From a virus, in the IMG/VR virus record IMGVR_UViG_3300008110_000499, positions 1 through 24,500 of that record: a DNA stretch of 24,500 bases, one strand, 5' to 3'. The position numbers were made by a program, and so were the translations under genes. Below are positions 1 to 14,462 of the stretch, piece after piece. The first letter of the stretch is position 1; each line of letters starts with the position of its first letter. The notes below the pieces were generated by a model, which made no database searches, was not told the DNA's origin, and saw only the letters and a program-made list of their open reading frames with translations.

Positions 1-933
1 CTGACCAACATCGGGCAAAACTGGATCGAAGCGCCCGACTTCATCGCATGGCCAGACCTGTCTGCCTTCTCCCCGACGATCCCGCTTGGCACGGCTTCCA
101 CCTTCGCCACCGTCGTTGAGACCAATACGGTCAATGGAAAGTCGTATGCGCTGGACCGCCTCGCTTACGCGGTGACAGCGGGCACGGCCCCGACTTCGGA
201 GAGTGCGAGCGTCAGCGGTGGGGCGGCGGTTCTTTCGACGCAAAACACTGTGGGCTCAACCCGGCTGATCGACCTCTCGCTTCGTCCCGCTGTGCAGTCC
301 ACAAACTCGCAGCGCGAAGGCTCGATGTATTCGAGCATCGCGAGCATGGTCCGCGTCAAGTGCAGGGCCACGTTGACGGGAGACTACTCATACGCAGAGG
401 TCAAGTTCGGGCAGGATTACCCCGGATCTGGCTCCACCAACTTCGGCATCCGGCTTCGCGGCAGGCAGGCTGTCTCGTTTACCATCGCAGGAAATCCCGC
501 ATTACTCGTTTCGATCAATAGAAGCGGCGCCATTCAAAGCCTTGGGTGGGTGACGCGCTCCCTGTTCGACGGCGTGGACATCGGCGTGGACCTCATCACT
601 CTCGGAACCGTGGGATACGTCGCCGTCTATCCGTGGAACCCTGCCTGGACTGACTTCCCCGACTACTCCGATCACGGCTTCACCCTGCCCGTGGACGGGT
701 GCCTTGGCCCCGTCCCGGTCCCTGTGAACGCGCAGTTCGTCCAGACAAACATGCCTTATGCAGCCGGCGGTTACCCGGTACAGGCGCAGGGCAACGTGCA
801 GGACAGCTTTACGCGGAACTGGGGAGTTCATTTCGCGGTGGCGCAGGGAGGGACTGGAAGCGGTGGCGCTCAACTGAACATTTACACTGTAAAGTATTAC
901 TGGAAGGCGCTCGCAGGGGGCTCGCAGGCATGA
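1..933 (+). CDS. Tail appendage or receptor-binding-like structural protein, 5' end outside the window
   Basis: The reading frame is open from the first base of the window and closes with TGA at 931-933, so at least 310 residues are present and the true start lies upstream. An internal GTG at 172 is not a convincing start because coding continues without a break before it. Composition is typical of beta-rich virion proteins: many Gly, Ser, Thr, Val and aromatic residues, no charged helices, no signal peptide and no membrane segment. The end of the gene contains a perfect 13-bp palindrome at 881-893. The stop overlaps the next start (ATGA). I infer a tail fibre, spike or appendage component because it precedes a similar gene (1159-1965) with the same small-gene partner. 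No specific family was recognised, so the role is uncertain. Confidence 0.6.
   Translation: MTNIGQNWIEAPDFIAWPDLSAFSPTIPLGTASTFATVVETNTVNGKSYALDRLAYAVTAGTAPTSESASVSGGAAVLSTQNTVGSTRLIDLSLRPAVQSTNSQREGSMYSSIASMVRVKCRATLTGDYSYAEVKFGQDYPGSGSTNFGIRLRGRQAVSFTIAGNPALLVSINRSGAIQSLGWVTRSLFDGVDIGVDLITLGTVGYVAVYPWNPAWTDFPDYSDHGFTLPVDGCLGPVPVPVNAQFVQTNMPYAAGGYPVQAQGNVQDSFTRNWGVHFAVAQGGTGSGGAQLNIYTVKYYWKALAGGSQA
881..893. promoter_or_regulatory. Operator-like palindrome TTTACACTGTAAA inside a coding region
   Basis: This is a perfect 13-bp palindrome with central C, one of eight exact matches to TTTACANTGTAAA in the window. It lies within the last 50 bases of the upstream structural gene, where it encodes part of an IYTVKYY segment, and 37 bases ahead of the next start codon. 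The position inside a gene resembles stoperators rather than a promoter operator. The bound protein is unknown. Confidence 0.55.
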
Positions 934-1157
934 TCACGGTACTTACACAGACCCCTCTGACCGTCGCGGACCTCTCGCAAGGCGGGGCCGAAGTGGAGTG
1001 TCAGGTCTTTGACCTCGCAGTGGATCTCTCCACCCTCGAAGCGGACCTCGCTCAATACGACCCTACATCTGCGACTTCGCCATCAGTAACCATCGCCCGG
1101 AAGTATGCGAGGGTACTCTTGGACGCTTACGCCGCCTCTAAGGGGCAAGGAGCCTGA
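930..1157 (+). CDS. Small phage protein, paralogue of the protein at 1965-2165
   Basis: A 75-residue protein starting at an ATG that overlaps the preceding TGA. I prefer this start to longer upstream possibilities because translational coupling through ATGA is common in this genome. The C-terminal half carries DLAQYDPTSATSPSVT followed by an R..R..LD segment, which matches the 66-residue protein at 1965-2165 (NYDAASATSPGVT, then R..LRAILD). Both follow a large virion-type gene, so the two gene pairs look like a duplicated module. There is no membrane segment or signal peptide. Function is not recognised. A chaperone or minor component for the preceding appendage protein would fit the context, but this is inference. 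Confidence 0.7.
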   Translation: MITVLTQTPLTVADLSQGGAEVECQVFDLAVDLSTLEADLAQYDPTSATSPSVTIARKYARVLLDAYAASKGQGA

Positions 1158-1158
1158 T

Positions 1159-1965
1159 ATGCCCATCATCCCTTTCTTCGACCCCGCAACCGGGGCATCT
1201 GGCGGCCCCACCAACTCTGGCGGTGGCGGCACGATTGGCTGGAAAGTTGTCGCGGACTATGACCTTACGACGGTCGATACTGCCGCTGCAACGACGGGAA
1301 CGACCGGGTCCATCAACCTCACAGTCGGCGGCGCCCCGTTCATCTCCCTGACTGGCATCGATGGCATTGGAACAGGCTCATTGACGCCCACCAACGGTCA
1401 AGGGCTGGTGTTCTCGGTCAACTCGACTGGCCAAAGGTCCATCCTGTTCGACCCTGACTGGACCGCGCTGGGGGTGAGCGATGTGTTCCGCCGCATCTTC
1501 GCCGTCGAAGCGCAAGTGGCCATCGGCAATCTCTCCAACGGCGCAGCCGGCTACATTATGATGGCCTCCGCTGGTTCCAGTTCTTCGACTAACAGCAACA
1601 TTTCAAGCCGCTGCACCTTCAACGGGACTGTCTACAGCATCAACGCCCGGACCTACCACAGCGGCGCAGTCAACGACACCGCCGACACGACGGCGGCATC
1701 GCCCCCGGCTGCATGGTCTGCCTCGGTTATGCGCTGCCCGGAGGGCATCGAGATCTGCCACGGCCTGACGACGTTGCCGGCGAACCCGGACCTTCAGACG
1801 TTCGTGGGCCGTCGCCGGTCGCAGGACTTCCCCACCTTCGTCAAAGGTGGCTCGCTGCGGCTGGGAACCGACCCTAAGCTGTCCTTTGACCTGTTCGGTA
1901 CGTCTGCCGGCAACTCGTCCATGACTGTTAGACGGCTTCGTATTTCCGTTATGGAGGTGGTCTGA
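1159..1965 (+). CDS. Tail appendage-like structural protein
   Basis: A 268-residue protein. I place the start at ATG 1159 because an AAGGAG ribosome site lies just upstream (1147-1152); an in-frame ATG at 1105 would overlap the previous gene by 53 bases. After a short N-terminus (MPIIPFFDPATG) comes a Gly-rich hinge at about residues 16-26 (GGPTNSGGGGTIGW), then a long beta-rich, Ser/Thr/Gly-rich region with no charged helices. A hinge followed by a beta domain is common in phage appendage and receptor-binding proteins, but I see no diagnostic motif. The stop shares a base with the next ATG. The gene belongs to a large-gene/small-gene pair that mirrors 1-933 plus 930-1157. Confidence 0.65.
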   Translation: MPIIPFFDPATGASGGPTNSGGGGTIGWKVVADYDLTTVDTAAATTGTTGSINLTVGGAPFISLTGIDGIGTGSLTPTNGQGLVFSVNSTGQRSILFDPDWTALGVSDVFRRIFAVEAQVAIGNLSNGAAGYIMMASAGSSSSTNSNISSRCTFNGTVYSINARTYHSGAVNDTADTTAASPPAAWSASVMRCPEGIEICHGLTTLPANPDLQTFVGRRRSQDFPTFVKGGSLRLGTDPKLSFDLFGTSAGNSSMTVRRLRISVMEVV

Positions 1966-2165
1966 TGCTCATCACTGATTGTTACAAAGTTCTGGATGAT
2001 GACAGCAGCACGCCGACGATCGTCGTTCTTCGGTTCTCGCAGGTAGAGATGGACGATCTTCTGGCCAACTATGACGCGGCAAGCGCGACTTCACCCGGAG
2101 TTACCTACTGCCGGCCCGTGCTCCGCGCTATCCTTGACCGCGTGAAGGAGGTCAACGATGCCTGA
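1965..2165 (+). CDS. Small phage protein, paralogue of the protein at 930-1157
   Basis: A 66-residue protein whose ATG overlaps the preceding TGA by one base (TGATG). Residues 31-47 or so read LLANYDAASATSPGVTY, followed by a basic helix with RPVLRAILDRVKEV. The same pattern, Y-D-x-x-S-A-T-S-P-x-V-T then R-x-x-x-R-x-x-L-D, is present in the 75-residue protein at 930-1157, so the two are paralogues, although their N-terminal halves differ. No membrane segment or cysteine motif is present. The start of the next gene is embedded eight bases before this stop, indicating tight coupling. Function is unknown. Confidence 0.7.
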   Translation: MLITDCYKVLDDDSSTPTIVVLRFSQVEMDDLLANYDAASATSPGVTYCRPVLRAILDRVKEVNDA

Positions 2166-2466
2166 CGCCGAAACCGTGTCTGCCCTGGCTCCCCTGTTCG
2201 CCGGTCCCGGCGCCGCCGTGCTGGTGCTCTTGGCCGTCCTTTTCGGCCTTTACATCATCGTCGTCAAGCATGGCATCCCTCTCGTTGCCGCGCTGGGCAA
2301 GAGGCATCTCGACCAGATCGACGCGCTGATCGGAGTGCAGCGGGCTGAGAGTGCAGCGATCACAAAGACGCTGGCCAGCATCGACCGCCGACTGGCGAAG
2401 CTCGAAGATCTCTCTGAGCGCATCGGGGTAAACCACGGCGCGCTGTCTCCTGACCGCCTCACCTAA
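2158..2466 (+). CDS. Small membrane protein with coiled-coil tail, holin- or spanin-like candidate
   Basis: A 102-residue protein. Residues about 14-37 form a single strongly hydrophobic segment (AGPGAAVLVLLAVLFGLYII), followed by a predicted alpha-helical, heptad-like region (residues about 50-90: DQIDALIGVQRAESAAITKTLASIDRRLAKLEDL). One N-terminal membrane anchor plus an amphipathic helix suits a holin, an inner-membrane spanin or a membrane-anchored phage accessory protein. The site, at the end of a late block behind tail genes, is where lysis genes often lie. No endolysin is visible next to it and there is no second membrane span, so holin is only a candidate. AAGGAGG (2144-2150) upstream provides the ribosome site. 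Confidence 0.6.
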   Translation: MPDAETVSALAPLFAGPGAAVLVLLAVLFGLYIIVVKHGIPLVAALGKRHLDQIDALIGVQRAESAAITKTLASIDRRLAKLEDLSERIGVNHGALSPDRLT

Positions 2467-2476
2467 GAGGTCCACC

Positions 2477-2731
2477 ATGCCTGTTCGTCGCATCAAAGAA
2501 GGCGAGCCCGGTTACGGGAAGAAAAAGTTTGTCGCAACAGGCACCTATGAGGGCAAGGAATACACCGTCCGTTTTGGCGATGCGAACATGGAGATACGGC
2601 GCGACAGCCCGGAGGCGCGCAAGAACTTCCGTTCTCGCCATAACTGCGATGAACCCGGACCTCCGAATAAGCCGCGCTACTGGTCATGTAAAATGTGGTC
2701 TAAGAAGCCTGTCTCGGAGATCGCAAAATGA
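2477..2731 (+). CDS. Small conserved phage protein with RHNC...YWSCKMW motif
   Basis: An 84-residue basic protein with a GAGG ribosome site 8-9 bases before ATG 2477. The N-terminal half reads as a short beta-rich segment (KFVATGTYEGKEYTVRFGD). The C-terminal half has the distinctive pattern FRSRHNCDEPGPPNKPRYW followed by SCKMW, with two cysteines and a histidine that could bind a metal. From memory this C-terminal motif recurs in small proteins of many environmental tailed phages; I cannot attach a proven function. The stop overlaps the next start (ATGA). It is the first of four consecutive small basic genes at the right end of this block, which look like one functional group. Confidence 0.7.
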   Translation: MPVRRIKEGEPGYGKKKFVATGTYEGKEYTVRFGDANMEIRRDSPEARKNFRSRHNCDEPGPPNKPRYWSCKMWSKKPVSEIAK

Positions 2732-2880
2732 GCCCGCTATTGAAGTGGCGCAAAGAGCGGTCTAAGCCTGCCTGGAACCGCCCGAAGTCCCGCATGGCGC
2801 GACTGATGGAGCGCGTTCAGCGGGACATTGAGGCATCGCAGGAACGTGTAGAGACATTGAGGCATCGCAGGAACGTGTAG
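2728..2880 (+). CDS. Very small basic protein whose 3' end is frame-shifted by a 29-bp tandem duplication
   Basis: A 50-residue, strongly basic protein starting MSPLLKWRKERSKP; the ATG overlaps the preceding stop. From residue 33 the frame enters two perfect tandem copies of a 29-base unit (2824-2881). Because 29 is not a multiple of three, the second copy is read in another frame and ends at TAG 2878-2880 after ETLRHRRNV. If one copy is removed, the original frame continues with EQVEVNSKAGAF and stops at TAA 2916-2918, overlapping the next ATG as TAATG, the junction style used all along this block. I infer an ancestral 53-residue protein altered by a recent slippage duplication, unless the duplication is an assembly error. 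Function is unknown. Confidence 0.55.
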   Translation: MSPLLKWRKERSKPAWNRPKSRMARLMERVQRDIEASQERVETLRHRRNV

Positions 2881-2881
2881 A
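2824..2881. repeat. Perfect 29-bp tandem duplication
   Basis: Bases 2824-2852 and 2853-2881 are identical. The unit begins GACATTGAGGCATCGC. The copy number decides the reading frame of the small gene at 2728: two copies give an early TAG, one copy restores coupling to the gene at 2918. Confidence 0.95.
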
Positions 2882-2917
2882 ACAGGTCGAAGTCAACAGT
2901 AAAGCGGGGGCTTTCTA

Positions 2918-3259
2918 ATGGCAGACGACTACTGCACAAAGAAAGTAAAGTCGCAGTATGCCGTGTGGCCCTCTGCCCGTGCATCGCAGGCCGTCGCCAA
3001 ATGCCGCAAAGAGCGTGGCGATGTTCGGAAAGGCGAGGAAGGCACCTCCCTTCGTCGCTGGGAGCGAGAAGAGTGGAAGGACAAAGCGACGGGGAAGCCA
3101 TGCGGAGCGGGCGGGGATGCCGAATACTGCCGCCCCTCGAAAGTCGTCAGCAAGTCCAAGACCCCGAACACCCGTCCTTCCGCCGACGATGAACAGGACG
3201 CGCTCTTCCGCAAAAGGGCGGGTAAGCGCGCAGATCCCGTCAAGACACCCCGGAGGTAG
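2918..3259 (+). CDS. Small basic Cys-containing conserved viral protein
   Basis: A 113-residue basic protein. It begins with DDYCTKKVKSQYAVWPSARA, a pattern I recognise from small phage proteins of the form Y..KVK..y.vwPSAYAs..i.kCRK. The middle holds LRRWEREEWKDKATGKPCG and then EYCRPSKVVSKSKTPNTRPS, a W..E.W.D..TGKPCG...YCRPSK.vs.kTP motif that, from memory, is shared with phages and some large eukaryotic DNA viruses. Cysteines at about 6, 29, 82 and 90 may bind a metal. The C-terminus is Lys/Arg-rich and probably disordered. The start ATG lies four bases behind the TAA that would end the unduplicated upstream gene. A virion-internal or nucleic-acid-binding role is plausible from charge but unproven. 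Confidence 0.7.
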   Translation: MADDYCTKKVKSQYAVWPSARASQAVAKCRKERGDVRKGEEGTSLRRWEREEWKDKATGKPCGAGGDAEYCRPSKVVSKSKTPNTRPSADDEQDALFRKRAGKRADPVKTPRR

Positions 3260-3262
3260 CTC

Positions 3263-3397
3263 ATGCCGCTTTACGAAGGCAAGTCCCGCAAAACGATGGA
3301 AAAGAACATCAAGAAGCTGATCGACGAAAAGTACCCTCCGAAGCAGGCCGTCGCCATCGCATACGAGAAGGCAGGCAAGAGCAAGAAGAAGGGATAG
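3263..3397 (+). CDS. Very small Lys-rich conserved phage protein (44 residues)
   Basis: A 44-residue protein with a strong GGAGG ribosome site (3252-3256) before ATG 3263. The sequence [20 protein letters not shown] continues with a [10 protein letters not shown] segment and a C-terminal KAGKSKKKG tail. The pattern MPL..GKS...m..NI..li...yp.KQAvAIAy..AGkSkk is one I recognise from many very small phage proteins of unknown role, which supports a real gene despite its length. It is the last gene of the rightward block; the terminator hairpin follows at 3466. High Lys content suggests binding to nucleic acid or an acidic partner, as inference. Confidence 0.7.
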
Positions 3398-3446
3398 ACT
3401 GCCAAGGCCCCTGATGTGTTCATTACTAAGGAGTTTGGCGAGTCGT

Positions 3447-3459
3447 TTTACAGTGTAAA
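3447..3459. promoter_or_regulatory. Operator-like palindrome TTTACAGTGTAAA at the convergent junction
   Basis: This perfect 13-bp palindrome with central G lies between the end of the rightward block (3397) and the terminator hairpin (3466). There is no promoter next to it. The window's only GANTC site (GAGTC, 3440-3444) ends two bases upstream. Position beside a terminator is reminiscent of stoperator-type sites that block passing polymerase; the binding protein is unknown. Confidence 0.6.
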
Positions 3460-3465
3460 GAAGAA

Positions 3466-3491
3466 GGCCCCCACCGCGACGGGTGGGGGCC
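3466..3491. terminator. GC-rich hairpin terminator between convergent blocks, best for leftward transcripts
   Basis: A perfect 10-bp stem (GGCCCCCACC at 3466-3475 with GGTGGGGGCC at 3482-3491) encloses a six-base loop. Read leftward, the stem is followed by the T-rich run TTCTTCTTTAC, which fits an intrinsic terminator for the leftward operon ending at 3537. Read rightward there is no T tract, so termination of the block ending at 3397 is less certain. Nothing else is seen in 3398-3536 apart from the palindrome. Confidence 0.75.
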
Positions 3492-3536
3492 TAAGAGTGG
3501 CACACGCTATCTGCGCGGCTCTTTTGTAATGTGCTC

Positions 3537-3740
3537 TTACTCTACTCGATTATGTCCCGGCGTCAATGCCCAGGCCGCTACACTTAGCGCAGCGATGAAG
3601 CCAACGACCGCGCCGATGCTCATGTATGTCGTGACGATCGCGATGGACGCTGCGAGCGGAGTGCCCGTGACGGTCATCAGGCTCGCTGTGACTGCGACGA
3701 TCGACCAAAAGATGCCTGAGTAGACGAGTAGGCTTTTCAT
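3537..3740 (-). CDS. Small membrane protein with two hydrophobic segments
   Basis: A 67-residue protein on the leftward strand. Two hydrophobic stretches, at about residues 4-25 (LLVYSGIFWSIVAVTASLM) and 39-60 (YMSIGAVVGFIAALSVAAWA), predict two membrane spans with a very short loop and a short polar C-terminus (PGHNRVE). A GAGGTGG ribosome site precedes the ATG, which overlaps the stop of the HNH gene (ATGA), so the two are co-transcribed. Small two-span proteins of this type can be holins, superinfection-exclusion proteins or morons. The location in the leftward block argues against a classical late lysis gene. Function is unresolved. Confidence 0.6.
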   Translation of the reverse strand: MKSLLVYSGIFWSIVAVTASLMTVTGTPLAASIAIVTTYMSIGAVVGFIAALSVAAWALTPGHNRVE

Positions 3741-4306
3741 AGTGCCACCTCCGCTGCGGGCGTGGCGCTGTCAGACATCAGCAGGTTTCGCATGGACGCG
3801 GGCTGGAAGTGAAGCAGCCCGTGATCCGCATAGAACTCTGCGACCCGCACGGCGGCCTCTTCGGGCGTATCGAACGTGCCCAGGTAGCTGAGCTTCCGCT
3901 TGATGGAAGGGACCGCGATGAAGCGTTGACCGCGCTGGTAAACACCCTTGAACCCGGTGGGCGGGTACTTCGAGGTCGCATGGCCATAGGGGCGACGGTT
4001 CATCAGGTTTTGGCTGAGGGTGACAGCGCGCAGGTTCGCCCACCGATTATCCAGCGTGTCGCCGTTGATATGGTCGATTTGTAGCTCGCCAGGGTCTTGA
4101 CCCGTCATCAGCAGGTAGGCGATGCGGGCGCCGATGAAGGCGTGATTATTGATCCTGACGAACCAGCGATTATTCCGCAAGCCGCCGCTGATCGACCCGC
4201 GAGGGCGACCGCGATGATCGCGCATCCAGCGGAACTCCCCTGTCTCGGGGCAGTAGTGGATCATGCGAGCGACTTGACGAAAGGGAGGAAGGGGTCTGGC
4301 TTTCAT
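3737..4306 (-). CDS. HNH endonuclease with C-terminal AP2-like DNA-binding domain
   Basis: A 189-residue protein. Residues about 10-40 form the beta lead-in typical of this family (YCPETGEFRWMRDHRGRPRG). The HNH core is LQIDHINGDTLDNRWANLRA followed by VTLSQNLMNR, with the catalytic-type Asp-His pair (IDH), the central Asn (DN) and the final Asn of an HNN/HNH motif. The C-terminal third, GFKGVYQRGQRFIAVPSIKR and then LSYLGTFDTPEEAAVRVAEFY, matches an AP2-type domain. HNH-AP2 proteins are usually free-standing homing endonucleases in phage genomes. It has its own strong promoter (4361-4389) inside the leftward block, so it may be a later insertion together with the membrane protein at 3537. 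No intron boundary is visible nearby. Confidence 0.9.
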   Translation of the reverse strand: MKARPLPPFRQVARMIHYCPETGEFRWMRDHRGRPRGSISGGLRNNRWFVRINNHAFIGARIAYLLMTGQDPGELQIDHINGDTLDNRWANLRAVTLSQNLMNRRPYGHATSKYPPTGFKGVYQRGQRFIAVPSIKRKLSYLGTFDTPEEAAVRVAEFYADHGLLHFQPASMRNLLMSDSATPAAEVAL

Positions 4307-4333
4307 GGCGTCTGTCCGTGGTTGCGGAGTGGG

Positions 4334-4356
4334 ATACCCCTCTGTTGCAGGGGTAT
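4334..4356. promoter_or_regulatory. Inverted repeat over the start point of the HNH promoter, containing a GAGGGGTAT element
   Basis: ATACCCC (4334-4340) and GGGGTAT (4350-4356) form a 7-bp inverted repeat with a nine-base loop. On the leftward strand it includes GAGGGGTAT (4342-4334), the same element that is repeated in the control region at 7673-8102. It covers the predicted transcription start of the promoter at 4361-4389, a classic repressor-operator location. It could alternatively act as an RNA hairpin at the extreme 5' end of the transcript. Confidence 0.6.
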
Positions 4357-4360
4357 AGTG

Positions 4361-4389
4361 TTTATAGCAGGTACTGATGATAGCGTCAA
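4361..4389 (-). promoter_or_regulatory. Sigma-70-like promoter for the HNH and membrane protein genes
   Basis: On the leftward strand, TTGACG (4389-4384), a 17-base spacer and TATAAA (4366-4361) make a near-consensus -35/-10 pair. The predicted start is near 4354, giving a leader of about 48 bases to the HNH start at 4306. The primase-helicase gene ends at 4401, so this promoter separates the HNH pair from the rest of the leftward block. Confidence 0.75.
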
Positions 4390-4400
4390 CAGACTTTCTC

Positions 4401-6722
4401 TCACCGGCTGAACTTTTCTCTCTCTGCCCCCCTATGGGTAGCAGAGGGCAGTCCGTTTCCCTTCATCGCGACCGTGCCAGGAGGGATCGGCTTGAACCAG
4501 AGGGTCTTACCAGACGACTTCGGGAGCTTGCGGAAGCCCGCAGCCGTCAGCGCGCTACTGAGGGTCAGCCCGATCTTCGCGATCTGCGAGGGCGACAGGT
4601 TCTCGTCAATCGCCTGCGCGAACTCGCCTGCGGCAAAGCCATTATCGGGACCGCCCCGGTTTGCCTCGAAGGCGCTAATCGCGGCTTCATCCCAGGTGGA
4701 CAGGTGGCGGAACTTTTGATTGGACTTACCGCGCTTACTTTCCTCTTTGTCCATCAGCCACCAGAGGCCGTCTGTGTTGGCGCGCTTACCCGCGTCATAG
4801 AGCGCGACGGCCTCTGCCAGTAGCTGATCACGGTTCGCCCGGAGCCAGTCGAGATCCGCCTTCGGATGCGCGGCGTCGTCAGGGTCAAGGTCGGGGAATG
4901 AGGGGACTTCCACTACCCAAAAGCGGCGGTCGCCCGTCCGGTCTTTGAGGAAGCTGTCCTCATTCGTCGTTCCCGCGATGATGAAGTGGCGCGGCTGATC
5001 CTTGACGAACCGTTCGTATGGAGCGCGGAAAGTATCGGTTTGGCGAGTGAGGAAGTTCTTTAGAGAGTTTCCCTCGCTCATCTTTGTTGATGCCAGTTCC
5101 GCGTCCTCATAGATCCACGCACGATTGAGGACCATCAGGCTGTCTTTGTTCCGCGTGTCGATCTGCTGATCCACAAAGCACTCATCTGATGCCCAGGTGC
5201 GGAACAGGGTGGACTTGCGGAACGACTGACGGCCGGCAAGTACCAGTACCGTGTCGCACTTACAGCCCGGTTCGAGCGCACGGGCGACCAAAGAGATCGC
5301 CCATTTGCGAGAATAGATGGACAGTAGATCACGGTCCACCGTAAACGGGCACTGTATGGCTTCGGCAGGGGCGAATACCGTGTTCCACAGCCATTCGTCC
5401 AGGCGAGGTTCCCCATCCCAGGCGAGCCCGCGCAGGTACTCCTTGACCGGGTTCCGCTTCCTCTCCGCGCAGACGCTGAGGATGGCATCGAACACAGTCT
5501 CTTTGCCCGGACGGTTCATCGTCCACTGATAGTCGGCCTCTAACATCAGGGAGAGTTCGATATGCGCGTGCTCCGATAGCGGGGCGGTCCCGTTCATCGC
5601 GACCTGCCGGAAGTCGTCATACCAGAGGTTCCAGCGCGCATCATGCCGCAGCACGTTCATCAGGTTCGTCAAAGTCGGTTCGGGCACCGTCGTCAGGCTC
5701 CCGTCCTTGCCGCGCTTCATGGACAGCGTGGCCCGTCCAGGGACTTTGACTGTGTAGGTGTTATGCCAGACGATGTTCGCGGCGTTCGAGATCAGCTTGC
5801 TGGACCCGTCGCCCTCAACGACAAAGAACGCGGAACCGACGCTGCTTCCACTCTCCGGGCAGATCGTGTTCAGCCGGCTTCCGGCCGACAGCCCGGTGAT
5901 CGCTTCCTGCCATGAGCGGCCGTCGTTGAGGAATTTCTGCGAGAAGTCCACGCTCCGATGTTCCATGCGCGCAGCGGCAGTCGCGGGACGGGCTGCGGCG
6001 CTGCCCTGGGAGGCGCGTGGCGCCGTCGCACAGCGAGCGGCGATGCCCGACAGGTCTGCGGGCCGCAGGACGCAGCCAGCGTCCCCACAGAGGACTTCCA
6101 CGGCCTTCGGGATGGACGGGCACTTGACGTTCATGCTGCCGGGGAACCGCGCCAGTCTCGCCCCTACATCGTTCGTGTTGTCCAGCGCAGCGCGCCAGTC
6201 CAGGCCCTCCTTCGACGCCGCATCTGCGACCCGGCGATTGACCTCTGCGACGATGGCTTTGTGCAGCGTGCTGAGCCGTTCATGGTCGGCAGGGGTGAAG
6301 CCGTCCACTGCATAGTGGAAGTGATAGCCCCAGCCGCTGTCAATGATCGCGGTAGGGTCCATGTTCATCACGGCCGACAGCGCCTCTGTCACGACTTCCA
6401 GGGCGTATTCCTTCATGCCCTCGATCTCGTCATCAGGGACCGTGTAGAGGACGGCCTTACGGGCGTCCGCGCTGATCTCGACTTCCTCTCCCTCGGAGAC
6501 GCGCACGGCGGTATGGAGCCCGATCAGGTCGGCGTCGAAGAACAGGCTGGTGACTTGCTTGCAGTTACCCTTCGTCCGGCCTGTGCCAGAGGGGGACACG
6601 CTCCCTACCTCGAACAGCCCGGTGCTGATGTAGTCGCCCCCGGACAGCGCCTGTTCGACGTATTCCAGTCCGGCGGGAGGTTGCGGCCAAATAGCGGCGA
6701 TGATAGAGTGGAACTGGGTCAT
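4401..6722 (-). CDS. Primase-helicase: AEP-type primase fused to VirE-family superfamily 3-like ATPase
   Basis: A 773-residue replication protein. The N-terminal third has archaeo-eukaryotic primase motifs: FFDAD (residues 61-65, metal-binding DxD), SGWGYHFHY (129-137, the sxH motif) and ARLARFPGSMNVK (188-200, the third motif). The C-terminal half is a VirE-type ATPase: NPVKEYLRGLAWDGEPRLDE (424-443), a P-loop-like GRQSFRKST (497-505), Walker B region WIYEDAEL (536-543), a polar TTN (585-587) and KDRTGDRRFW (593-602). The P-loop departs from GxxGxGK[ST] but keeps the Lys-Ser-Thr. Such fusions prime and unwind DNA at phage or plasmid origins. The upstream spacer carries a hairpin (6753-6786). 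The ATG at 6722 has a weak GAGGA site. Family assignment is firm; origin specificity is unknown. Confidence 0.92.
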   Translation of the reverse strand: MTQFHSIIAAIWPQPPAGLEYVEQALSGGDYISTGLFEVGSVSPSGTGRTKGNCKQVTSLFFDADLIGLHTAVRVSEGEEVEISADARKAVLYTVPDDEIEGMKEYALEVVTEALSAVMNMDPTAIIDSGWGYHFHYAVDGFTPADHERLSTLHKAIVAEVNRRVADAASKEGLDWRAALDNTNDVGARLARFPGSMNVKCPSIPKAVEVLCGDAGCVLRPADLSGIAARCATAPRASQGSAAARPATAAARMEHRSVDFSQKFLNDGRSWQEAITGLSAGSRLNTICPESGSSVGSAFFVVEGDGSSKLISNAANIVWHNTYTVKVPGRATLSMKRGKDGSLTTVPEPTLTNLMNVLRHDARWNLWYDDFRQVAMNGTAPLSEHAHIELSLMLEADYQWTMNRPGKETVFDAILSVCAERKRNPVKEYLRGLAWDGEPRLDEWLWNTVFAPAEAIQCPFTVDRDLLSIYSRKWAISLVARALEPGCKCDTVLVLAGRQSFRKSTLFRTWASDECFVDQQIDTRNKDSLMVLNRAWIYEDAELASTKMSEGNSLKNFLTRQTDTFRAPYERFVKDQPRHFIIAGTTNEDSFLKDRTGDRRFWVVEVPSFPDLDPDDAAHPKADLDWLRANRDQLLAEAVALYDAGKRANTDGLWWLMDKEESKRGKSNQKFRHLSTWDEAAISAFEANRGGPDNGFAAGEFAQAIDENLSPSQIAKIGLTLSSALTAAGFRKLPKSSGKTLWFKPIPPGTVAMKGNGLPSATHRGAEREKFSR

Positions 6723-6752
6723 GGCAGTGATCCTCGTCAGTGTGTGGGACTT

Positions 6753-6786
6753 GGGCCGGTAGGGGAGTGGTTGCTCCTACCGGCCC
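6753..6786. other. Perfect 11-bp stem hairpin between the ribbon-helix-helix and primase genes
   Basis: GGGCCGGTAGG (6753-6763) pairs with CCTACCGGCCC (6776-6786) around a 12-base loop. The element fills most of the 71-base gap between the genes ending at 6794 and starting at 6722 on the leftward strand. Leftward it is followed by AAGTCCCAC, with no T run, so it is not a standard leftward terminator. Rightward it is followed by TTCTCTTTC, which could stop antisense transcription. A processing site, attenuator or protein-binding RNA hairpin controlling primase output are alternatives. Confidence 0.6.
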
Positions 6787-6793
6787 TTCTCTT

Positions 6794-7021
6794 TCAGAAA
6801 TTGCGAAGTAGGGTCAGTAGCTGGCGGGTCTTAGTCGGGCTGCGGCTCCATGTAGCATTTTCCGGCAAAGCCATCTGCGCTGCCAGTAGCCGGACATACT
6901 CGCGCAGCGCCGGCTTTAGAAACTCCGAGCAAAAAGCCTGGATGGAGCGACCGTCAAGGTAGGCAGCGGTCTTGAAGAGCATGTGGAGTTCTTCGTCCAC
7001 GACGATGTGTTCGGGCTTCAT
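6794..7021 (-). CDS. Ribbon-helix-helix-like small DNA-binding protein (candidate regulator)
   Basis: A 75-residue protein. The first 45 residues fit the ribbon-helix-helix pattern: a short beta strand (HIVVDEEL), a first helix (LHMLFKTAAYLDG), a polar turn with RSIQAF, and a second helix (CSEFLKPALREYVRLLA). The tail is basic (SRSPTKTRQLLTLLRNF). Such proteins dimerise and bind palindromic or tandem operators, and include phage repressors, antitoxins and partition regulators. The ATG overlaps the stop of the upstream gene (ATGA), so it is expressed from the leftward promoter at 7463-7491. It is the best local candidate to bind one of the two operator families, but nothing in the sequence proves this. 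Assignment is from pattern only. Confidence 0.6.
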   Translation of the reverse strand: MKPEHIVVDEELHMLFKTAAYLDGRSIQAFCSEFLKPALREYVRLLAAQMALPENATWSRSPTKTRQLLTLLRNF

Positions 7022-7413
7022 GTGTTCTCCATCTGCGCCATGAAGCGGCAGAGATCTTCATCCAGCTCAAAATCGCCGGCAAAGCCAACATAGCTGTGCC
7101 ACCCGTTGCCCGTCGTGTCTCTTGTCCTTGCGTCTCTGCACGGGTTGAACTGGATCGCGATGGTCTGGCTCCATGCTTCGCAGTTCGGCGTGTTGGAGTT
7201 CTCCGCTAGATGGTAGAACCGCGTCATCGTCGTCAGGCTGTCTGTGTTCACGAAGCGCACCATCACGCTGAGATGCGGCTCCTTCTCGCGACGGCGGCGG
7301 ATGTAGTCAAAGCCCTGGGCCATCACCGTGAACGACCGCTGTGCGTCCCGGCAGTAGTGGTACTCCTCACGCTCAACATGCACCTCGAACATCATGTCAA
7401 CGATCATCAGCAT
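7018..7413 (-). CDS. Hypothetical protein, first gene of the leftward operon
   Basis: A 131-residue protein. I choose ATG 7413 (MLMIVDMMFEVHVERE) because an AGAGAGG ribosome site lies five bases upstream and the leader from the promoter at 7463-7491 then fits; a longer frame beginning at 7503 would start upstream of the promoter. The sequence mixes beta strands and polar loops, has Cys at several scattered positions without a clear metal motif, and has an acidic C-terminal helix (DFELDEDLCRFMAQMENT). There are no membrane spans or signal peptide. First position in an early-type operon suggests an early host-takeover or regulatory protein, as inference only. I do not recognise the family. Confidence 0.65.
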   Translation of the reverse strand: MLMIVDMMFEVHVEREEYHYCRDAQRSFTVMAQGFDYIRRRREKEPHLSVMVRFVNTDSLTTMTRFYHLAENSNTPNCEAWSQTIAIQFNPCRDARTRDTTGNGWHSYVGFAGDFELDEDLCRFMAQMENT

Positions 7414-7462
7414 CTGGACCTCTCTCGTCAGCCCGTGGTGTGTGGCTGGGCCTGACCTAGAC

Positions 7463-7491
7463 ATAGTAACCAGACGGCTCGCCACTGTCAA
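7463..7491 (-). promoter_or_regulatory. Leftward sigma-70-like promoter for the early/replication operon
   Basis: On the leftward strand, TTGACA (7491-7486) and TACTAT (7468-7463) are separated by 17 bases. An A/T-rich stretch (about 7502-7545, with TATTTATTAAG) lies just upstream and could serve as an UP element. The predicted start is near 7456, about 43 bases before the ATG at 7413. Confidence 0.75.
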
Positions 7492-7672
7492 ACACCGCAA
7501 CATGTATTTATTAAGAGGTAGTTTTAGTGTAATTAAGACATCACGACTGAATGATTGCGCGTCTTAGTCAGCAGGCTTCGGGCTGAGTATGTTGCCGAAA
7601 TCTGTTACCGAAGTCGGCCCCTCAACAGCAGCGCGCATCGTCGCCCGGACACCGCGACTACTTGCACACTTT

Positions 7673-8102
7673 GAGGGGTCCAAATCCGTGTTCTAGACCC
7701 CTCAAAACCTGATTATAGGAAAAGCACCGCTCCTTCGCCCAGTCTCCGCCGAAATCGAGGCCGGAGACTTTGAGGGGTCTGTGAGGGGTATGATCAATAC
7801 CCCTCAAAAGAGGTCGATGATCATAGTGACGCTCCTGACTACACTTTAGAGCAGTTTCAAACACAAGCTAACATACTTTGAGGGGTATGAGGGGTATATG
7901 GTGTAAAGTGGTATGGGGTGTTGAGGAAGGGAAAAAGAGGTACTATTTAAACACCGCGCTTCGCACTCTGGACGGGCCATGAAGGGGGGTCACTACTTTT
8001 GCGCGCAGACCCCTCATACCCCTCAAACACTCCCCGATAGTGGAGGTAGGAGCGGGCGTTTCGGCCATGAAGGATCACAGATGTTCAGTATGCCTACCCC
8101 TC
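7673..8102. repeat. Cluster of ten GAGGGGT heptamers with nested inverted repeats
   Basis: Forward copies of GAGGGGT start at 7673, 7772, 7783, 7880 and 7889; reverse copies (ACCCCTC) start at 7697, 7799, 8009, 8018 and 8096. Most are extended to TTTGAGGGGT followed by A or C. Paired copies form inverted repeats: 7670-7680 with 7696-7706 (11 bp), 7783-7791 with 7797-7805 (9 bp), and 7877-7895 with 8009-8027 (19 bp, perfect). Balanced orientation and nested symmetry indicate protein-binding sites and not random G-richness. Confidence 0.85.
7877..8027. repeat. 19-bp perfect inverted repeat flanking an A/T-rich core
   Basis: TTTGAGGGGTATGAGGGGT at 7877-7895 recurs as its exact reverse complement at 8009-8027. 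Each arm consists of two GAGGGGT heptamers at 9-base spacing. The 113 bases between the arms include a purine-rich run and TACTATTTAAAC (7941-7952). A looping or strand-opening element is plausible. Confidence 0.85.
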
Positions 8103-8130
8103 ATATCTTTGGCAAAATTCTCAGTTTGCT

Positions 8131-8293
8131 TTTACAATGTAAAACCAAAACCAGATTTCCTACCACTAAGTCGTCCCCATCTTTACATTGTAAAACCAAA
8201 ACGGGATTTGTCGCCACTAAGTCGGTGGCTTTACAATGTAAAACCAAAACGGGAAATGTGGCCACTAAGTCGCTCTGACCTTTACATTGTAAA
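8131..8293. repeat. Four palindromic iterons TTTACANTGTAAA at about 50-bp spacing
   Basis: Exact palindromes lie at 8131-8143, 8182-8194, 8230-8242 and 8281-8293, spaced 51, 48 and 51 bases apart. The central base alternates A, T, A, T. The first three are each followed by ACCAAAAC and, after a short variable stretch, by CCACTAAGTCG; the fourth is followed by GTCG and then directly by the rightward promoter. About five turns of DNA per unit place the sites on the same helix face, as in iteron origins or multi-operator repressor regions. Confidence 0.9.
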
Positions 8294-8298
8294 GTCGC

Positions 8299-8326
8299 TT
8301 GACACTATGGCTGGTAGTGCTATGTT
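8299..8326 (+). promoter_or_regulatory. Rightward sigma-70-like promoter for the packaging and structural genes
   Basis: A perfect -35 TTGACA (8299-8304), a 16-base spacer and a -10-like TATGTT (8321-8326). The fourth iteron ends five bases upstream of the -35 box, so a protein bound there would touch RNA polymerase. The predicted start near 8333 leaves a very short leader to the first gene at 8346. Confidence 0.7.
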
Positions 8327-8345
8327 CAGTAGCGGAGCCGCCGCC

Positions 8346-8555
8346 ATGAAGTGCCCGACTTGCCTGAAAGAAACCATCGTCAAAGAGACGCGGCAGCCGC
8401 AAAAGGTCCGGCATCGGTTTATTGCCGAATTTTCGGTACAGTGGCCCGACCTGCTGATCCGCCGACGTAAGTGCGAGGAACACGGTACATTCGTAACCGT
8501 GGAGCTTCCTCTCATTGACCTTCAGAAAATCGCGGGTGATGCATGGAGAGCCTGA
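8346..8555 (+). CDS. Small zinc-ribbon protein resembling the NrdR DNA-binding module
   Basis: A 69-residue protein. It starts MKCPTCLKETIVKETR and later has LLIRRRKCEEHGTFVTVEL. Cys3-x2-Cys6 and Cys43-x2-His46 make a zinc-ribbon pair, and the RRRKC..HGTFVTVE stretch closely parallels the RRRxCxxCxxRFTTxE signature of NrdR, the repressor of ribonucleotide reductase genes. The ATP-cone domain that follows in NrdR is absent, and the last ligand is His where NrdR has Cys. I choose ATG 8346 because CGGAG lies eight bases before it; ATG 8307 and 8322 fall inside the promoter. It overlaps the next gene by 13 bases. As first gene behind an operator-controlled promoter it could be a regulator, but this is inference. 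Confidence 0.65.
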   Translation: MKCPTCLKETIVKETRQPQKVRHRFIAEFSVQWPDLLIRRRKCEEHGTFVTVELPLIDLQKIAGDAWRA

Positions 8556-8947
8556 CAAAAAAGCAAGCGCAGGTCGTCAAGTGGCTGGTCGAAAACGATC
8601 ACGACGATGAACCGACCATCGCAGTCAGGGAAGGGCTGGTCTCTCACGCGGGCTTCTTCAAGTGGGGCGGAAGCAAGGCCGTGGCCGAATGGTGTAAGGA
8701 GTACCGCCGGTCGCTGCCGCCCCCGCCTCTGACAGATGATGAGATCTCTCGCCGTCTGCGCCTGCTTGCGCCAAAGGCGCTGTCCATGCTCGAAAAAACG
8801 ATCGAGAATGGCTATGGCGACAAGACAGCGGTGGGCCTCTCGCAGTGGATCATCAAAGAGACAGTCAAGCCCGTGCAGGTCGAACAGCCCGTGTCGCATG
8901 ATGAGGCTGAGCGCGAACTCGCCAAAGTGCTGCGGCTGGTGAAGTAG
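8543..8947 (+). CDS. Terminase small subunit, probable
   Basis: A 134-residue mainly helical protein immediately upstream of the terminase large subunit gene. The first part (LTKKQAQVVKWLVENDHDD and the following FFKWGGSKAVAEWCKEYRR) looks like a helix-turn-helix DNA-recognition region. The middle (DDEISRRLRLLAPKALSMLE) fits the oligomerisation helices of small terminases, and the tail is charged (HDEAERELAKVLRLVK). Small subunits select the packaging site on phage DNA and load it onto the motor. The call depends largely on position and size, since these proteins diverge strongly. The ribosome site is weak, but the gene overlaps the previous one by 13 bases and the next GTG overlaps its TAG, which suggests coupling. 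Confidence 0.7.
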   Translation: MESLTKKQAQVVKWLVENDHDDEPTIAVREGLVSHAGFFKWGGSKAVAEWCKEYRRSLPPPPLTDDEISRRLRLLAPKALSMLEKTIENGYGDKTAVGLSQWIIKETVKPVQVEQPVSHDEAERELAKVLRLVK

Positions 8948-10518
8948 TGCCTTTCATCCCAGGGCGTGTCCCCGTCGCCATGCGCGCCAAGCTCGCAGCC
9001 CTACTCTCGGAGCCGGGCCTTTTCGCGCAGCTTCATAAGGTGCAAGACAAAGACACGAAAAGACTGGTGCCCTTCGACCCTCTGCCGATGCAGGTCAAGA
9101 TCTTTGACGCTGTAAAAGCTGGGCACAAACGCATCATCATCCTCAAAGCCCGTCAGGTCGCAGCGACGACCGGGGCGAAGATGGTGCTTCACTGGCTCGC
9201 CTACACGACGCCGTATGCGGCGATGCACGCGATCGTCAGCATGAGGGACGACAGCGCGACCTCGCTGATGGACGATAATCGGCGCTGGCTCGAACATCTG
9301 CCCAAGCTCTTGCAGCGTCCGCTGATCCGGCGAAGCAGCGGGCAGATCGCTTACGGGGACACAGAGGCGTCCTTGCAGGCGTTCACCTCTCGCTCAACGA
9401 CCGGGCTCCGCTCCTTCACCCCTGCGGCTGCGCTGATCTCCGAAGCCGCCTATGCGCCAGACCTCGAAGAAGTCTTGGCGCAGATCGATGCAGCCGTGGG
9501 CGACGGTCTTTTGATCGTAGAGAGCACGGCCGCGAACCCAAACGACTTCTTCTCGTCTCTTATTCGCGGAGCACCTGAGAACGGCTGGCACCTACTCACG
9601 ATGTTTTGGCATGAGCACCCTCTCTACTCTGACCCCGACAGCGACTTCGACGCCGCAGAGTTCGAGGCATCTCTTTCAGACAGTGAAAAGTCTCTGCGAA
9701 CAGCCTACTCCCTCACGCTGAACCAGTTGCATTGGCGCCGCCGCACGATGAAAAGACTGGGCAGCGAGCACAAATTTCGCAGGGAATATCCAGCGAATAT
9801 AGATGACTGCTTCATCGACCGTGAGGGCGGGTATTTCGAGGAAGAAATCCTGAGCCAAGTAACCGTGCTCGAACATCAACTGCACGGCGAACATCACGGG
9901 CGGGAGATCGAGAAGCCTCACCCTCACGATCGCTATGTGATCGGCGTGGACATCGGAGGCGGCGCGGGTGGGGACTACAGCGCCTTGGCCGTCGTCAGCG
10001 TGGCCACCATGCAGCCCGTCTACACTGAGCGCAGCAATAAGGTCACGCCGCAGGCATGGGCGCACCGCGTCATCCAAGTGGCCTCTCGCTATAATAATGC
10101 CCTAGTTTTGGCTGAGAGTAACAATCATGGCCACGCTTTTCTGCTCGAAATGCAGAACTGCGGATACACTCAACAGTGGCGCGACCCGGCGACGGGCAAG
10201 CCGTGGGTCACAACTTTACAGTCAAAACTCGACGCCTATGCCACGCTGCGGGAGGCCCTGCCCCTCGTCAAGATGATGGACCGGCCGACTTGGCTCGAAC
10301 TGCGAAGCCTGACCATCCCTCCGGGCAAGATCGCCCCGGAGGCGCCGAAGGGCGGGTATGACGACGCCGCGATGGCCGTCGCCCTCGCCTACCGCTGCAT
10401 CCGCGACATTCCGGCTTCCTGGCGAACGCAGTCTTTACAGTCAAATAGAACGCGCATTGACGACCTTCTCGCCTCTGCCCGTGCCCGACGCATCCGTTCC
10501 GCCACGCTCCCCTTTTGA
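8947..10518 (+). CDS. terL: Terminase large subunit (packaging ATPase and nuclease)
   Basis: A 523-residue motor protein starting at GTG, which overlaps the TAG of the small subunit gene. The ATPase half has a Walker-A-like region KARQVAATTGAK (67-78), a Walker-B-like AALISEAA (161-168), the coupling-type VESTAANP (191-198), and REYPANIDDCFI (279-290), the usual end of that domain. The RNase-H-fold nuclease follows: VIGVDIGGGAGGDYSALAVV (331-350, first Asp), LVLAESNNHG (387-396, Glu) and KGGYDDAAMAVALA (468-481, final Asp pair). Length is normal for TerL. The Walker A segment is unusual because the typical RQxGK[ST] is stretched. Two TTTACAGTCAAA stretches (10215 and 10434) near the 3' end are half matches to the phage palindrome. 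Confidence 0.95.
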   Translation: MPFIPGRVPVAMRAKLAALLSEPGLFAQLHKVQDKDTKRLVPFDPLPMQVKIFDAVKAGHKRIIILKARQVAATTGAKMVLHWLAYTTPYAAMHAIVSMRDDSATSLMDDNRRWLEHLPKLLQRPLIRRSSGQIAYGDTEASLQAFTSRSTTGLRSFTPAAALISEAAYAPDLEEVLAQIDAAVGDGLLIVESTAANPNDFFSSLIRGAPENGWHLLTMFWHEHPLYSDPDSDFDAAEFEASLSDSEKSLRTAYSLTLNQLHWRRRTMKRLGSEHKFRREYPANIDDCFIDREGGYFEEEILSQVTVLEHQLHGEHHGREIEKPHPHDRYVIGVDIGGGAGGDYSALAVVSVATMQPVYTERSNKVTPQAWAHRVIQVASRYNNALVLAESNNHGHAFLLEMQNCGYTQQWRDPATGKPWVTTLQSKLDAYATLREALPLVKMMDRPTWLELRSLTIPPGKIAPEAPKGGYDDAAMAVALAYRCIRDIPASWRTQSLQSNRTRIDDLLASARARRIRSATLPF

Positions 10519-10528
10519 GTGTAAACCC

Positions 10529-11704
10529 ATGCCGGACTTCGACCTGTTCCACGGCGACTTACTCACTGTTCTTCCTACCTGGGAAGATAACTGTGTTGAT
10601 GCAGTCGTCTGCGACCCTCCTTACGGCCTCTCCTTCATGGGCAAAAACTGGGACCATAATGTTCCCGGTCCTGCCTATTGGCGCGAGATCTTCCGCGTCT
10701 TGAAGCCCGGTGGGCATCTTCTTGCCTTCGGCGGTAGCCGGACTTTTCATCGCATGTTTTGCGCTATTGAGGACGCAGGCTTCGAGGTGCGCGACACGCT
10801 GATGTGGGTCTATGGCAGCGGCTTCCCAAAGAGCCTGGATGTCTCGAAGGCGCTGGATAAGGCTGCGGGCGCGGAGCGTGAAGTCATCGGGACCAAGCTC
10901 GGGCAGCCGGGTTACTCTATGTCACCGACGGTGGCCCAACGTTCAGCACAGTGGGGCCTCAGCAACCCTGAAGCTGAATGCGCTGTCACGGCCCCTGCCA
11001 CCGACTTAGCTAAACAGTGGCACGGCTGGGGAACGGCCCTCAAACCCTCGCATGAACCCATCTGCATGGCGCGCAAGCCGCTGGAAGGGACTAGCGCGCA
11101 AAACACGGCGAAGTGGGGCGTGGGCGGTCTGAACATCGACGGGTGCCGGGTGGCTTCCGTGGACGGGCATAAAACAGCAAAGATGAAACCAACGCTAGTG
11201 CGAAACACCCCGGCAGCGTTCGGGCCCAATAAGCTCATGGCCGGCAAAGGATCGCCGCTTGGCCGCTGGCCCGCCAACCTCATCCATGACGGCTCGGATA
11301 AAGTCGTGGGCCTGTTTCCGACGCAGGGCGTGGGCTCCGCAGCCCGCTTCTTTTACTGTGCAAAGGCCAGCCCCCAAGACCGTAACGAGGGCTGCAACGG
11401 GCTGCCGCTTGGCGAAGGGCCTGAAACCGGACGAAGCAAGCCGGCGCCCACAGCGAAAACCGCAAGGGGAGCACCGCGCGAAAATCATCATCCCACGGTC
11501 AAGCCGACAGACCTCATGCGCTACCTCTGCCGGATGGTTACACCGCCGGGCGGCACGGTCCTTGACCCGTTCATGGGCAGCGGGAGCACGGGCAAGGGCG
11601 CGCTCTTAGAAGGCTTCAACTTCCTCGGCATAGAGCGCGAAAAGCAGTATATTGAGATCGCCACGGCCCGGCTGAACGCAGTCCTTCTCGAAGAGGTCAA
11701 GTGA
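10529..11704 (+). CDS. Beta-class DNA methyltransferase (N6-adenine or N4-cytosine)
   Basis: A 391-residue enzyme. I take ATG 10529 because HGDLLTVLPTWEDNCVDAVV and the catalytic DPPY (29-32) follow at the usual distance; the frame continues upstream but would overlap terL by some 160 bases. Motif order is DPPY first and the AdoMet-binding DPFMGSGS (346-353) last, preceded by HHPTVKPTDLMRYL, which defines the beta class to which CcrM belongs. The centre has VYGSGFPKS (95-102) and LNIDGCRVAS, a region I recognise from phage and plasmid methylases. It lies between terL and portal, inside the packaging module, and its stop overlaps the portal start. Target sequence cannot be read from the sequence. 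Protecting phage DNA from host restriction is the likely role. Confidence 0.9.
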   Translation: MPDFDLFHGDLLTVLPTWEDNCVDAVVCDPPYGLSFMGKNWDHNVPGPAYWREIFRVLKPGGHLLAFGGSRTFHRMFCAIEDAGFEVRDTLMWVYGSGFPKSLDVSKALDKAAGAEREVIGTKLGQPGYSMSPTVAQRSAQWGLSNPEAECAVTAPATDLAKQWHGWGTALKPSHEPICMARKPLEGTSAQNTAKWGVGGLNIDGCRVASVDGHKTAKMKPTLVRNTPAAFGPNKLMAGKGSPLGRWPANLIHDGSDKVVGLFPTQGVGSAARFFYCAKASPQDRNEGCNGLPLGEGPETGRSKPAPTAKTARGAPRENHHPTVKPTDLMRYLCRMVTPPGGTVLDPFMGSGSTGKGALLEGFNFLGIEREKQYIEIATARLNAVLLEEVK

Positions 11705-13380
11705 TGCTTACACCCGCTCATGTTGCCGAAATCGTGGCACAGCACGATCTTTACTGGCAAAACCGGCGTGAGGAACTGCGGGAGTACCGCCGCCTCTACA
11801 TGACTGACTTCTGGGAGAGCCAAGAGGTCACGGTTGAGGGCGTGCTGCGGACTGAGGTGCCGAAGGCATACGCCGTCGTTGAGAGCTACCTCGGCAGTCT
11901 TTACAGTAAAAACCCGGCCGTGTTCGTGCAGCCCGACTTGCGCGCACGGGGAAACGCGGAGGTCGCAGAGGCGACGGCCAACCTCTACCTGCTGAACGTG
12001 CGAGAGCAGTTGGAGGATGCCACCCGGCTTGCCCTCATCTACCCGTCCAGCTTCATCAAGCTGTCCCCCGTCGTCAGCGTGGACCCCTTGAAGCGCGTGG
12101 CGGCTGCGGCCCTGCCCCCGTGGGAAGTCATAGTCGATGCCACGGCGTCGTCTTGGGATCAACAGCGGTATGTCGGCCATGTGTACCTGATGCCCCTGCC
12201 CGAAGCGGTGGAACGGTATGGCAAGCCTGAGACTGACTACACGCCCCGCGTCTACTCCAAGTGGATCGACAGCGCGTCCACCCTCGGCAGCAAGACGACC
12301 GTGGGCCTGAGCCCGAACGACACCAGCGTTCCTGGGATGGAAAAGTTCGTCCGCATCGTGGAGGTCTATGACCTTCTTGCCGACAAGCTCCTTGTCTACT
12401 CTGAGGACTACAAGGGCAAAGACTTCCTGTTCACCGGGGTCAAGGTGCAGGTCGGCGCCCTCTCTGCCACGCCGACAGAGGACGAAGAGCCCGAACTCGA
12501 ACATGAGACGACGGGCATCCCCTACAAAAGCGCGTCCGGCAGGCCCATCGTCCCCATCATCCCGCTGTATTTCAGCCGCGACCCGGACACCCCTCTGCGC
12601 GGGTACAGCCTCATTGGGCGCAGCCGTGACCAGTTCCGCGAACTCAACTTGATGCGGAGCTATCAGGCGCAGGGCGTCCGCCGCATGGCCCGTCAGTGGA
12701 TGGTCCGCGCAGGCTTCCTCTCGGAAGATGCAGCGGCCAAAATCACACAGGGACTTGATGGCGAAATGATTGAGGTTGATGTGGCCCCCGGCACTCCGCT
12801 GGATGGCAACATGGTCCCCGTCCCGCAGGCGCCCATCCCTGGCGACATCGCGGCCTATGCCCTCACCGTGGATAATGACATCAAGGACGCGGGCCTTCTC
12901 GCTCCTTTCACCCGTGGCGAGGTCACAAAGAGCACGGCGACTGAGCAGCAGCTTCTTGCCGCCTACACTTCCTCTGAAATCGGCCGCATGGCCCGCATCA
13001 GGGACGCGGTAGTGACGGGCATCGCCAGCACCTACAACATCATGCTGAGCGTCATTCTTGGCGACGAAGCGGAGCCTCTGTCTCTGCCGAACCCGGTCGG
13101 CCCCACCGTGCTGTCCGCAGACGACCTGACCGGGGACTTCTCGTATTGGGCCGTGGACGCGGGCACCACGCCCATGAGCGATATGGCGAAGCAACAGTCG
13201 CTCGAACGGCTTGTGCCCACCCTGCTGTCTCTTGGCGCTCCGCGTGAGGCCGTCCTTGCCGAACTCGTCAGGGCCTACCAACTCCCCGAAGCGTTCGCCA
13301 AGGCCGTCGAACAGGCGCAGCCTGTTGAGCCCGTTTCCCCCGAAGGGGCGCCTGCCCCACTACCCGTCGAAGGACAGTGA
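11704..13380 (+). CDS. Portal protein
   Basis: A 558-residue protein from ATG 11704 (TGATG overlap with the methyltransferase stop, GAGG eight bases upstream; GTG 11701 is an alternative start). It begins with a helical region (WQNRREELREYRRLYMTDFW), then has EVPKAYAVVESYLGSLYSKN, an arrangement common in portals, followed by PPWEVIVDATASSWDQQRYV, typical of the wing region. The long helical part LIGRSRDQFRELNLMRSYQA would fit the stem. The C-terminus is Pro/Ala/Gln-rich. Portals form the dodecameric DNA channel at one capsid vertex and dock terminase during packaging. Position downstream of terL and upstream of scaffold and capsid strongly supports the call. TTTACAGTAAA (11900-11910) inside it is a shortened match to the phage palindrome. 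Confidence 0.88.
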   Translation: MLTPAHVAEIVAQHDLYWQNRREELREYRRLYMTDFWESQEVTVEGVLRTEVPKAYAVVESYLGSLYSKNPAVFVQPDLRARGNAEVAEATANLYLLNVREQLEDATRLALIYPSSFIKLSPVVSVDPLKRVAAAALPPWEVIVDATASSWDQQRYVGHVYLMPLPEAVERYGKPETDYTPRVYSKWIDSASTLGSKTTVGLSPNDTSVPGMEKFVRIVEVYDLLADKLLVYSEDYKGKDFLFTGVKVQVGALSATPTEDEEPELEHETTGIPYKSASGRPIVPIIPLYFSRDPDTPLRGYSLIGRSRDQFRELNLMRSYQAQGVRRMARQWMVRAGFLSEDAAAKITQGLDGEMIEVDVAPGTPLDGNMVPVPQAPIPGDIAAYALTVDNDIKDAGLLAPFTRGEVTKSTATEQQLLAAYTSSEIGRMARIRDAVVTGIASTYNIMLSVILGDEAEPLSLPNPVGPTVLSADDLTGDFSYWAVDAGTTPMSDMAKQQSLERLVPTLLSLGAPREAVLAELVRAYQLPEAFAKAVEQAQPVEPVSPEGAPAPLPVEGQ

Positions 13381-13382
13381 TC

Positions 13383-13889
13383 ATGCCCCTCGCTCCCGAT
13401 ATGCCCTCTATGCCCGATGATCTCCGCATGGCCGCTGAGGCGTCTGACGCCGAAGTGGAGGACACCCTTGCGGGCCTCATTCCTCCCCCGGAAAAGCCTT
13501 ACAGCCCGAAGGTAGTGACCGCGCTCGCCAAAGCCATCGCGGCTGCGGCGAAGGTCATGGGCCTGGACCTCGCTCCTGAGCCCTACTCCGAACCCGTCAT
13601 GGAACTGGACCCGGAGGTAGTGCGCTTCCTCGCCATGATGGACGCCGCGTCGAAGGACTATGGCTCCCCCTTCCCCGTCCCTCTCGACCAAGTGAAGGGC
13701 GACCGGGAGTTGACCGTCCTCACGGCCCATCTTCTCGGACTGGCCAAAGACCGCGACTTCAAGGACTTCCTCAACATGCCGCTCGAAGAAGAGGGCATGG
13801 AGACTGAGGTGGAGGTCAAGGTCAAGCCCGGCATGGAGGAAGAAGAGGAAGAAGAGGACTTCGACTTCGCGGGCCGGATGCGCCGCTGA
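13383..13889 (+). CDS. Acidic head-module protein of unknown function
   Basis: A 168-residue protein. ATG 13383 has AAGGA nine bases upstream; GTG 13377 would leave almost no spacing. The sequence has a Pro/Met/Asp-rich N-terminus, a central Ala-rich helix (VVTALAKAIAAAAKVMGLDL) and a very acidic tail with seven consecutive Glu residues near the C-terminus ending in FDFAGRMRR. An acidic tail and a location between portal and scaffold suggest an assembly factor or a minor head protein that interacts with basic partners. The two palindromic operators at 13904 and 13933 follow directly. I do not recognise a family. Confidence 0.65.
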   Translation: MPLAPDMPSMPDDLRMAAEASDAEVEDTLAGLIPPPEKPYSPKVVTALAKAIAAAAKVMGLDLAPEPYSEPVMELDPEVVRFLAMMDAASKDYGSPFPVPLDQVKGDRELTVLTAHLLGLAKDRDFKDFLNMPLEEEGMETEVEVKVKPGMEEEEEEEDFDFAGRMRR

Positions 13890-13903
13890 TCGCCTGCCAC
13901 GGC

Positions 13904-13945: not shown

Positions 13946-13958
13946 ACGGGAGTTGGGA

Positions 13959-14450: not shown

Positions 14451-14462
14451 AGGAAGTCCATC

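Follow-up and report, generated by a model that had tools for sequence, protein, structure and literature searches.

Gene content of the locus

The window analyzed here is a 24,500-nt stretch of viral DNA (positions 1 to 24,500 of the IMG/VR record IMGVR_UViG_3300008110_000499). The contig is a tailed-phage-like genome, with profile matches for the terminase, portal and major head protein, and has no near relative by DNA among named phages. The feature of interest is a small ORF lodged between two conserved genes (Table 1). The slot between these genes (window 2731-2918) is variable in the relatives L003-L034: it is empty in several of them (e.g. L003, L004, L008, L014 and L015), contains what looks like an M15-type peptidase gene, judging from the translations, in others (e.g. 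L005, L006, L009, L025 and L029), and is occupied by other small ORFs in further relatives. Just 3' of the DUF5872 gene lies a gene for a 44-aa Lys-rich protein (3263-3397; PHROG 2423, E 1.5e-17, function not known), and small proteins like it recur near the slot in relatives such as L021-L023.

Table 1. Coordinates of the features at the duplicated locus (positions in the window).
Feature	Position	Strand	Basis
Conserved 84-aa upstream gene; stop overlaps the ATG of the small ORF (ATGA)	2477..2731	+	321 relatives
Small ORF, two-copy form: 42 native and 8 out-of-frame residues (TLRHRRNV), stop TAG 2878-2880	2728..2880	+	42 residues identical to the 53-aa ORF of L002
Copy 1 of the 29-bp unit GACATTGAGGCATCGCAGGAACGTGTAGA	2824..2852	+	Single copy in the sister L002
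Copy 2 of the 29-bp unit, identical to copy 1	2853..2881	+	Absent from L002
Remnant of the native 3' end (QVEVNSKAGAF; stop TAA overlaps the next ATG), out of frame, apparently untranslated	2882..2918	+	Sequence, comparison with L002
Conserved 113-aa downstream gene, DUF5872 (PF19197)	2918..3259	+	Profile match

The intact form of the small ORF, as preserved in a sister phage described below, encodes a small, basic protein of 53 residues. With a codon-composition score of 0.091 the ORF is gene-like: the phage's own genes span this value (mean 0.21, 5th percentile 0.053), and off-frame sequence lies far from it (95th percentile -0.14). A structure prediction from the single sequence without an alignment, to which we give low weight, suggests helices at residues 3-11 and 22-50 (mean pLDDT 78). 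No homologue beyond the two phages was recovered from viral_contigs, genome_contigs, phages, plasmids, Pfam or PHROGs; no known family was found for the protein (best PHROG E 0.033), and in a comparison with 107 fetched loci all matches outside the sister were at chance level. Matches to Xanthomonas phages covered 19 residues with E-values of at least 2 and were set aside. Given this lack of homologues beyond two phages and the variable slot between conserved genes, the small gene is probably a dispensable accessory gene.

An exact tandem duplication near the end of the small gene

The 3' part of the small ORF contains a perfect tandem repeat (2824-2881) with a period of 29, exactly 2.0 copies and a 100% match, which was detected with Tandem Repeats Finder and is also visible by eye. 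Among units longer than 9 bp (tested up to 199 bp) the window holds no other exact tandem duplication, and this one is far beyond chance, with ~3e-13 exact 29-bp tandem repeats expected from base composition. The copy ends show no microhomology, as the flanking bases do not lengthen the match on either side. A sequence-only reading of this DNA had assigned the duplication to 2824-2918; the duplication is real, but the repeat proper stops at 2881, and the longer interval takes in all of the affected 3' end as far as the next ATG.

Starting from the ATG at 2728, copy 1 is read in frame and copy 2 in another frame, giving a product of 50 aa in total. This bears out the earlier proposal that the duplication shifts the frame and ends the protein at the TAG at 2878-2880. 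Rescue by a programmed frameshift was considered from the sequence and rejected: no slippery heptamer lies between the copies, and the frame of copy 2 has a TGA just upstream and no ATG, GTG or TTG for a restart.

A sister phage with a single copy

A scan with the neighboring 113-aa protein uncovered a sister phage, IMGVR_UViG_3300044591_001950 (locus L002; full contig L017), which shows 98-99% identity to window positions 918-15077 over the aligned stretches, a few indels aside. There the 29-bp unit occurs once and the 53-aa ORF, MSPLLKWRKERSKPAWNRPKSRMARLMERVQRDIEASQERVEQVEVNSKAGAF, is intact; it ends in ...TTTTGATGG with its TGA overlapping the ATG of the next gene. In a scan of viral contigs, from which the record of the window itself and others close to it may have been left out, the exact 29-base unit was found in the sister only. 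The sequence-only reading had anticipated that removal of one copy would yield a 53-aa protein with an overlapping stop and start; precisely such an allele exists in the sister (L002:1811-1972), the overlap being one base in both phages (TGATG in the sister, TAATG in the window). The neighboring junctions overlap as well, as had been stated (1965/1965, 2158/2165 and 2728/2731). A one-copy ancestor with an overlapping stop and start, predicted from the raw sequence, is confirmed by the sister phage.

The reading frame is kept in 18 of the 19 window genes compared with sister ORFs, the small ORF being the only one broken. The other within-gene indels measure 15, 126, 6 and 3 bp, each a length divisible by 3 (those of 126 and 6 bp fall in one gene), and a 76-bp indel is intergenic. 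Apart from the duplication, the small ORF differs from the sister's at three positions near its end (SNVs in the final codons and the stop, 2912-2917), all silent in the native frame. These would fit selection on that frame (chance ~0.2 each), and deserve little weight as they are clustered and may reflect one event. The known alleles amount to one two-copy and one one-copy sequence. Since the ORF is intact and the unit single in the sister, and only this gene of 19 is broken, the one-copy form is most likely ancestral. The earlier suggestion that the event is very recent is supported by the sister's single copy, which suggests a gain after the split. The identity of the copies adds little, because the two phages have diverged by only ~0.75%, and a pair of 29-bp copies dating back to their split would have a probability of 0.80 of being identical today.

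Differences and repeats were also noted elsewhere in the two genomes. At 3442/3443 the sister has 76 extra bp, placed between the gene for the 44-aa protein and a TTTACAGTGTAAA palindrome; next to this palindrome is a terminator-like hairpin (3465-3492). Within the gene for the DNA methyltransferase (10358-11704; PHROG 67), a 146-bp stretch (10869-11014) is swapped in frame for 20 unrelated bases in the sister, in DNA that is otherwise ~99% identical between the phages; perhaps a target-recognition or linker segment has been altered. The palindrome TTTACAnTGTAAA occurs in eight exact copies in the window (881-893, 3447-3459, 8131-8143, 8182-8194, 8230-8242, 8281-8293, 13904-13916 and 13933-13945), with 0.02 copies expected even when one mismatch is allowed. 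Upstream of the terminase gene, four of them are arrayed at intervals of ~50 bp. The sister has seven copies and the other fetched relatives none, and the palindromes look like putative regulator operators or origin iterons of this lineage.

Origin of the duplication

Two adjacent identical copies in one phage and a single copy in its close relative are what a derived tandem duplication leaves behind. We consider the probable explanation to be an ordinary, recently derived, one-step duplication in a small accessory gene of this phage lineage. The 29-bp stretch near the 3' end of the gene would have been copied once in tandem after the split from the sister; as 29 is not a multiple of 3, the first 42 residues are kept, followed by 8 wrong ones and a stop. 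Such damage was probably tolerated, because the gene is without known relatives and the slot is empty or otherwise filled in other phages.

What counts against an ordinary mutation is that each form is known from a single sequence, and that the copy ends lack microhomology. Tandem duplications arising by slippage usually show some end microhomology. Elsewhere, by contrast, GTCTCT repeats flank the 15-bp indel at 7117, and a GAA run holds the 3-bp one, which is the ordinary signature of slippage. All E. coli amplification junctions in one study likewise had microhomology, although the events were far larger (PMC3161906). The locus thus resembles other frame-shifting short tandem duplications in its perfect head-to-tail copy, its length that is not a multiple of 3 and its derived state relative to a one-copy sister, but differs from them in its origin, for which simple slippage between direct repeats fails to account; template switching or end joining could do so. 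Literature searches on phase variation in phages, on short duplications in tandem and on duplications caused by assembly turned up no directly comparable case.

The missing microhomology is equally in line with abutted contig ends and with a mutation by template switching or end joining. Two contig pieces with a common 29-base end may have been abutted instead of merged, in which case the phage would really be one-copy with an intact gene. An array of exactly 2.0 copies, in which the match ends with the unit itself, can arise when overlapping ends are joined in this manner; the single copy of the sister and the confinement of damage to one gene of 19 also speak for it, and strain variants in the sample (the SNVs at 2912-2917) can complicate local assembly. 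Against this, an exact junction without Ns normally requires spanning reads, and the rest of the contig is ~99% like the sister with no other frame errors. On account of the gap-free junction and the otherwise clean contig we favor a real mutation over an assembly error, and regard the latter as rather unlikely, if by no means negligible.

The sequence-only reading had further entertained a slippage-type on/off switch. In such a switch, reversible gain and loss of a 29-bp copy would toggle how the small protein ends and its coupling to the next gene. One- and two-copy alleles do exist in near-identical phages, and a perfect 29-bp repeat can collapse to one copy, which makes reversion possible, but no cycle is evident. 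Phase-variable arrays usually have many short units, and a slippage switch needs repeats in both states. Here, there are just two copies of a long unit, and the scans turned up only alleles with one and two copies, one sequence each. At this site, direct repeats spaced 29 bp are absent from the one-copy allele, leaving nothing to drive a gain. While a change in repeat number alters the reading frame, as at contingency loci, the two copies of a 29-bp unit, the repeat-free one-copy allele and the want of an allele series among the known sequences set this locus apart from them. With exactly 2.0 copies that share no end bases, and with nothing to slip on in the one-copy allele, the data do not support a slippage switch, and we deem it highly improbable. 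A two-state switch operating in the living population, which would set the C-terminus of the small protein and, via coupling, the level of the DUF5872 protein, is harder still to credit. If the switch were real, it would show that a phage can switch by changing the copy number of a repeat with two copies; the evidence argues otherwise.

Probable consequences for the downstream gene

The duplication, in the reading as an ordinary mutation that we prefer, probably also bears on the gene that follows. In the intact allele, as seen in L002, the upstream stop overlaps the downstream start in the manner of an overlapping gene pair. Strict coupling was observed in 13 of 14 tested overlapping pairs (PMC6728339), and termination-reinitiation coupling was almost abolished at ~20 nt in tested E. 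coli and H. volcanii gene pairs (PMC10666635). While the one-base overlap of the intact allele resembles such pairs, the duplication places the stop 37 nt upstream of the DUF5872 ATG at 2918, beyond the distance at which coupling nearly vanished in the published tests. No strong Shine-Dalgarno motif is apparent in the sequence before this ATG, and the predicted RNA folds around it hardly differ between the alleles (-24.9 and -26.6 kcal/mol). The duplication has likely altered the C-terminus of the small protein and, by analogy with the tested pairs, removed its translational coupling to the DUF5872 gene; lower DUF5872 translation in the two-copy form is a fair inference from the 37-nt separation as against the ~20 nt at which coupling was almost abolished.

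One could also imagine that the two-copy form is functional as it stands, with the altered C-terminus or the separated stop under selection. The basic TLRHRRNV does take the place of the native end of the predicted long helix, but this form is represented by a single sequence and was not found in any relative, and we hold this to be the least credible of the readings.

The duplication matters little beyond its locus. For annotators it serves as a warning that the 50-aa ORF is the broken form of a 53-aa gene.
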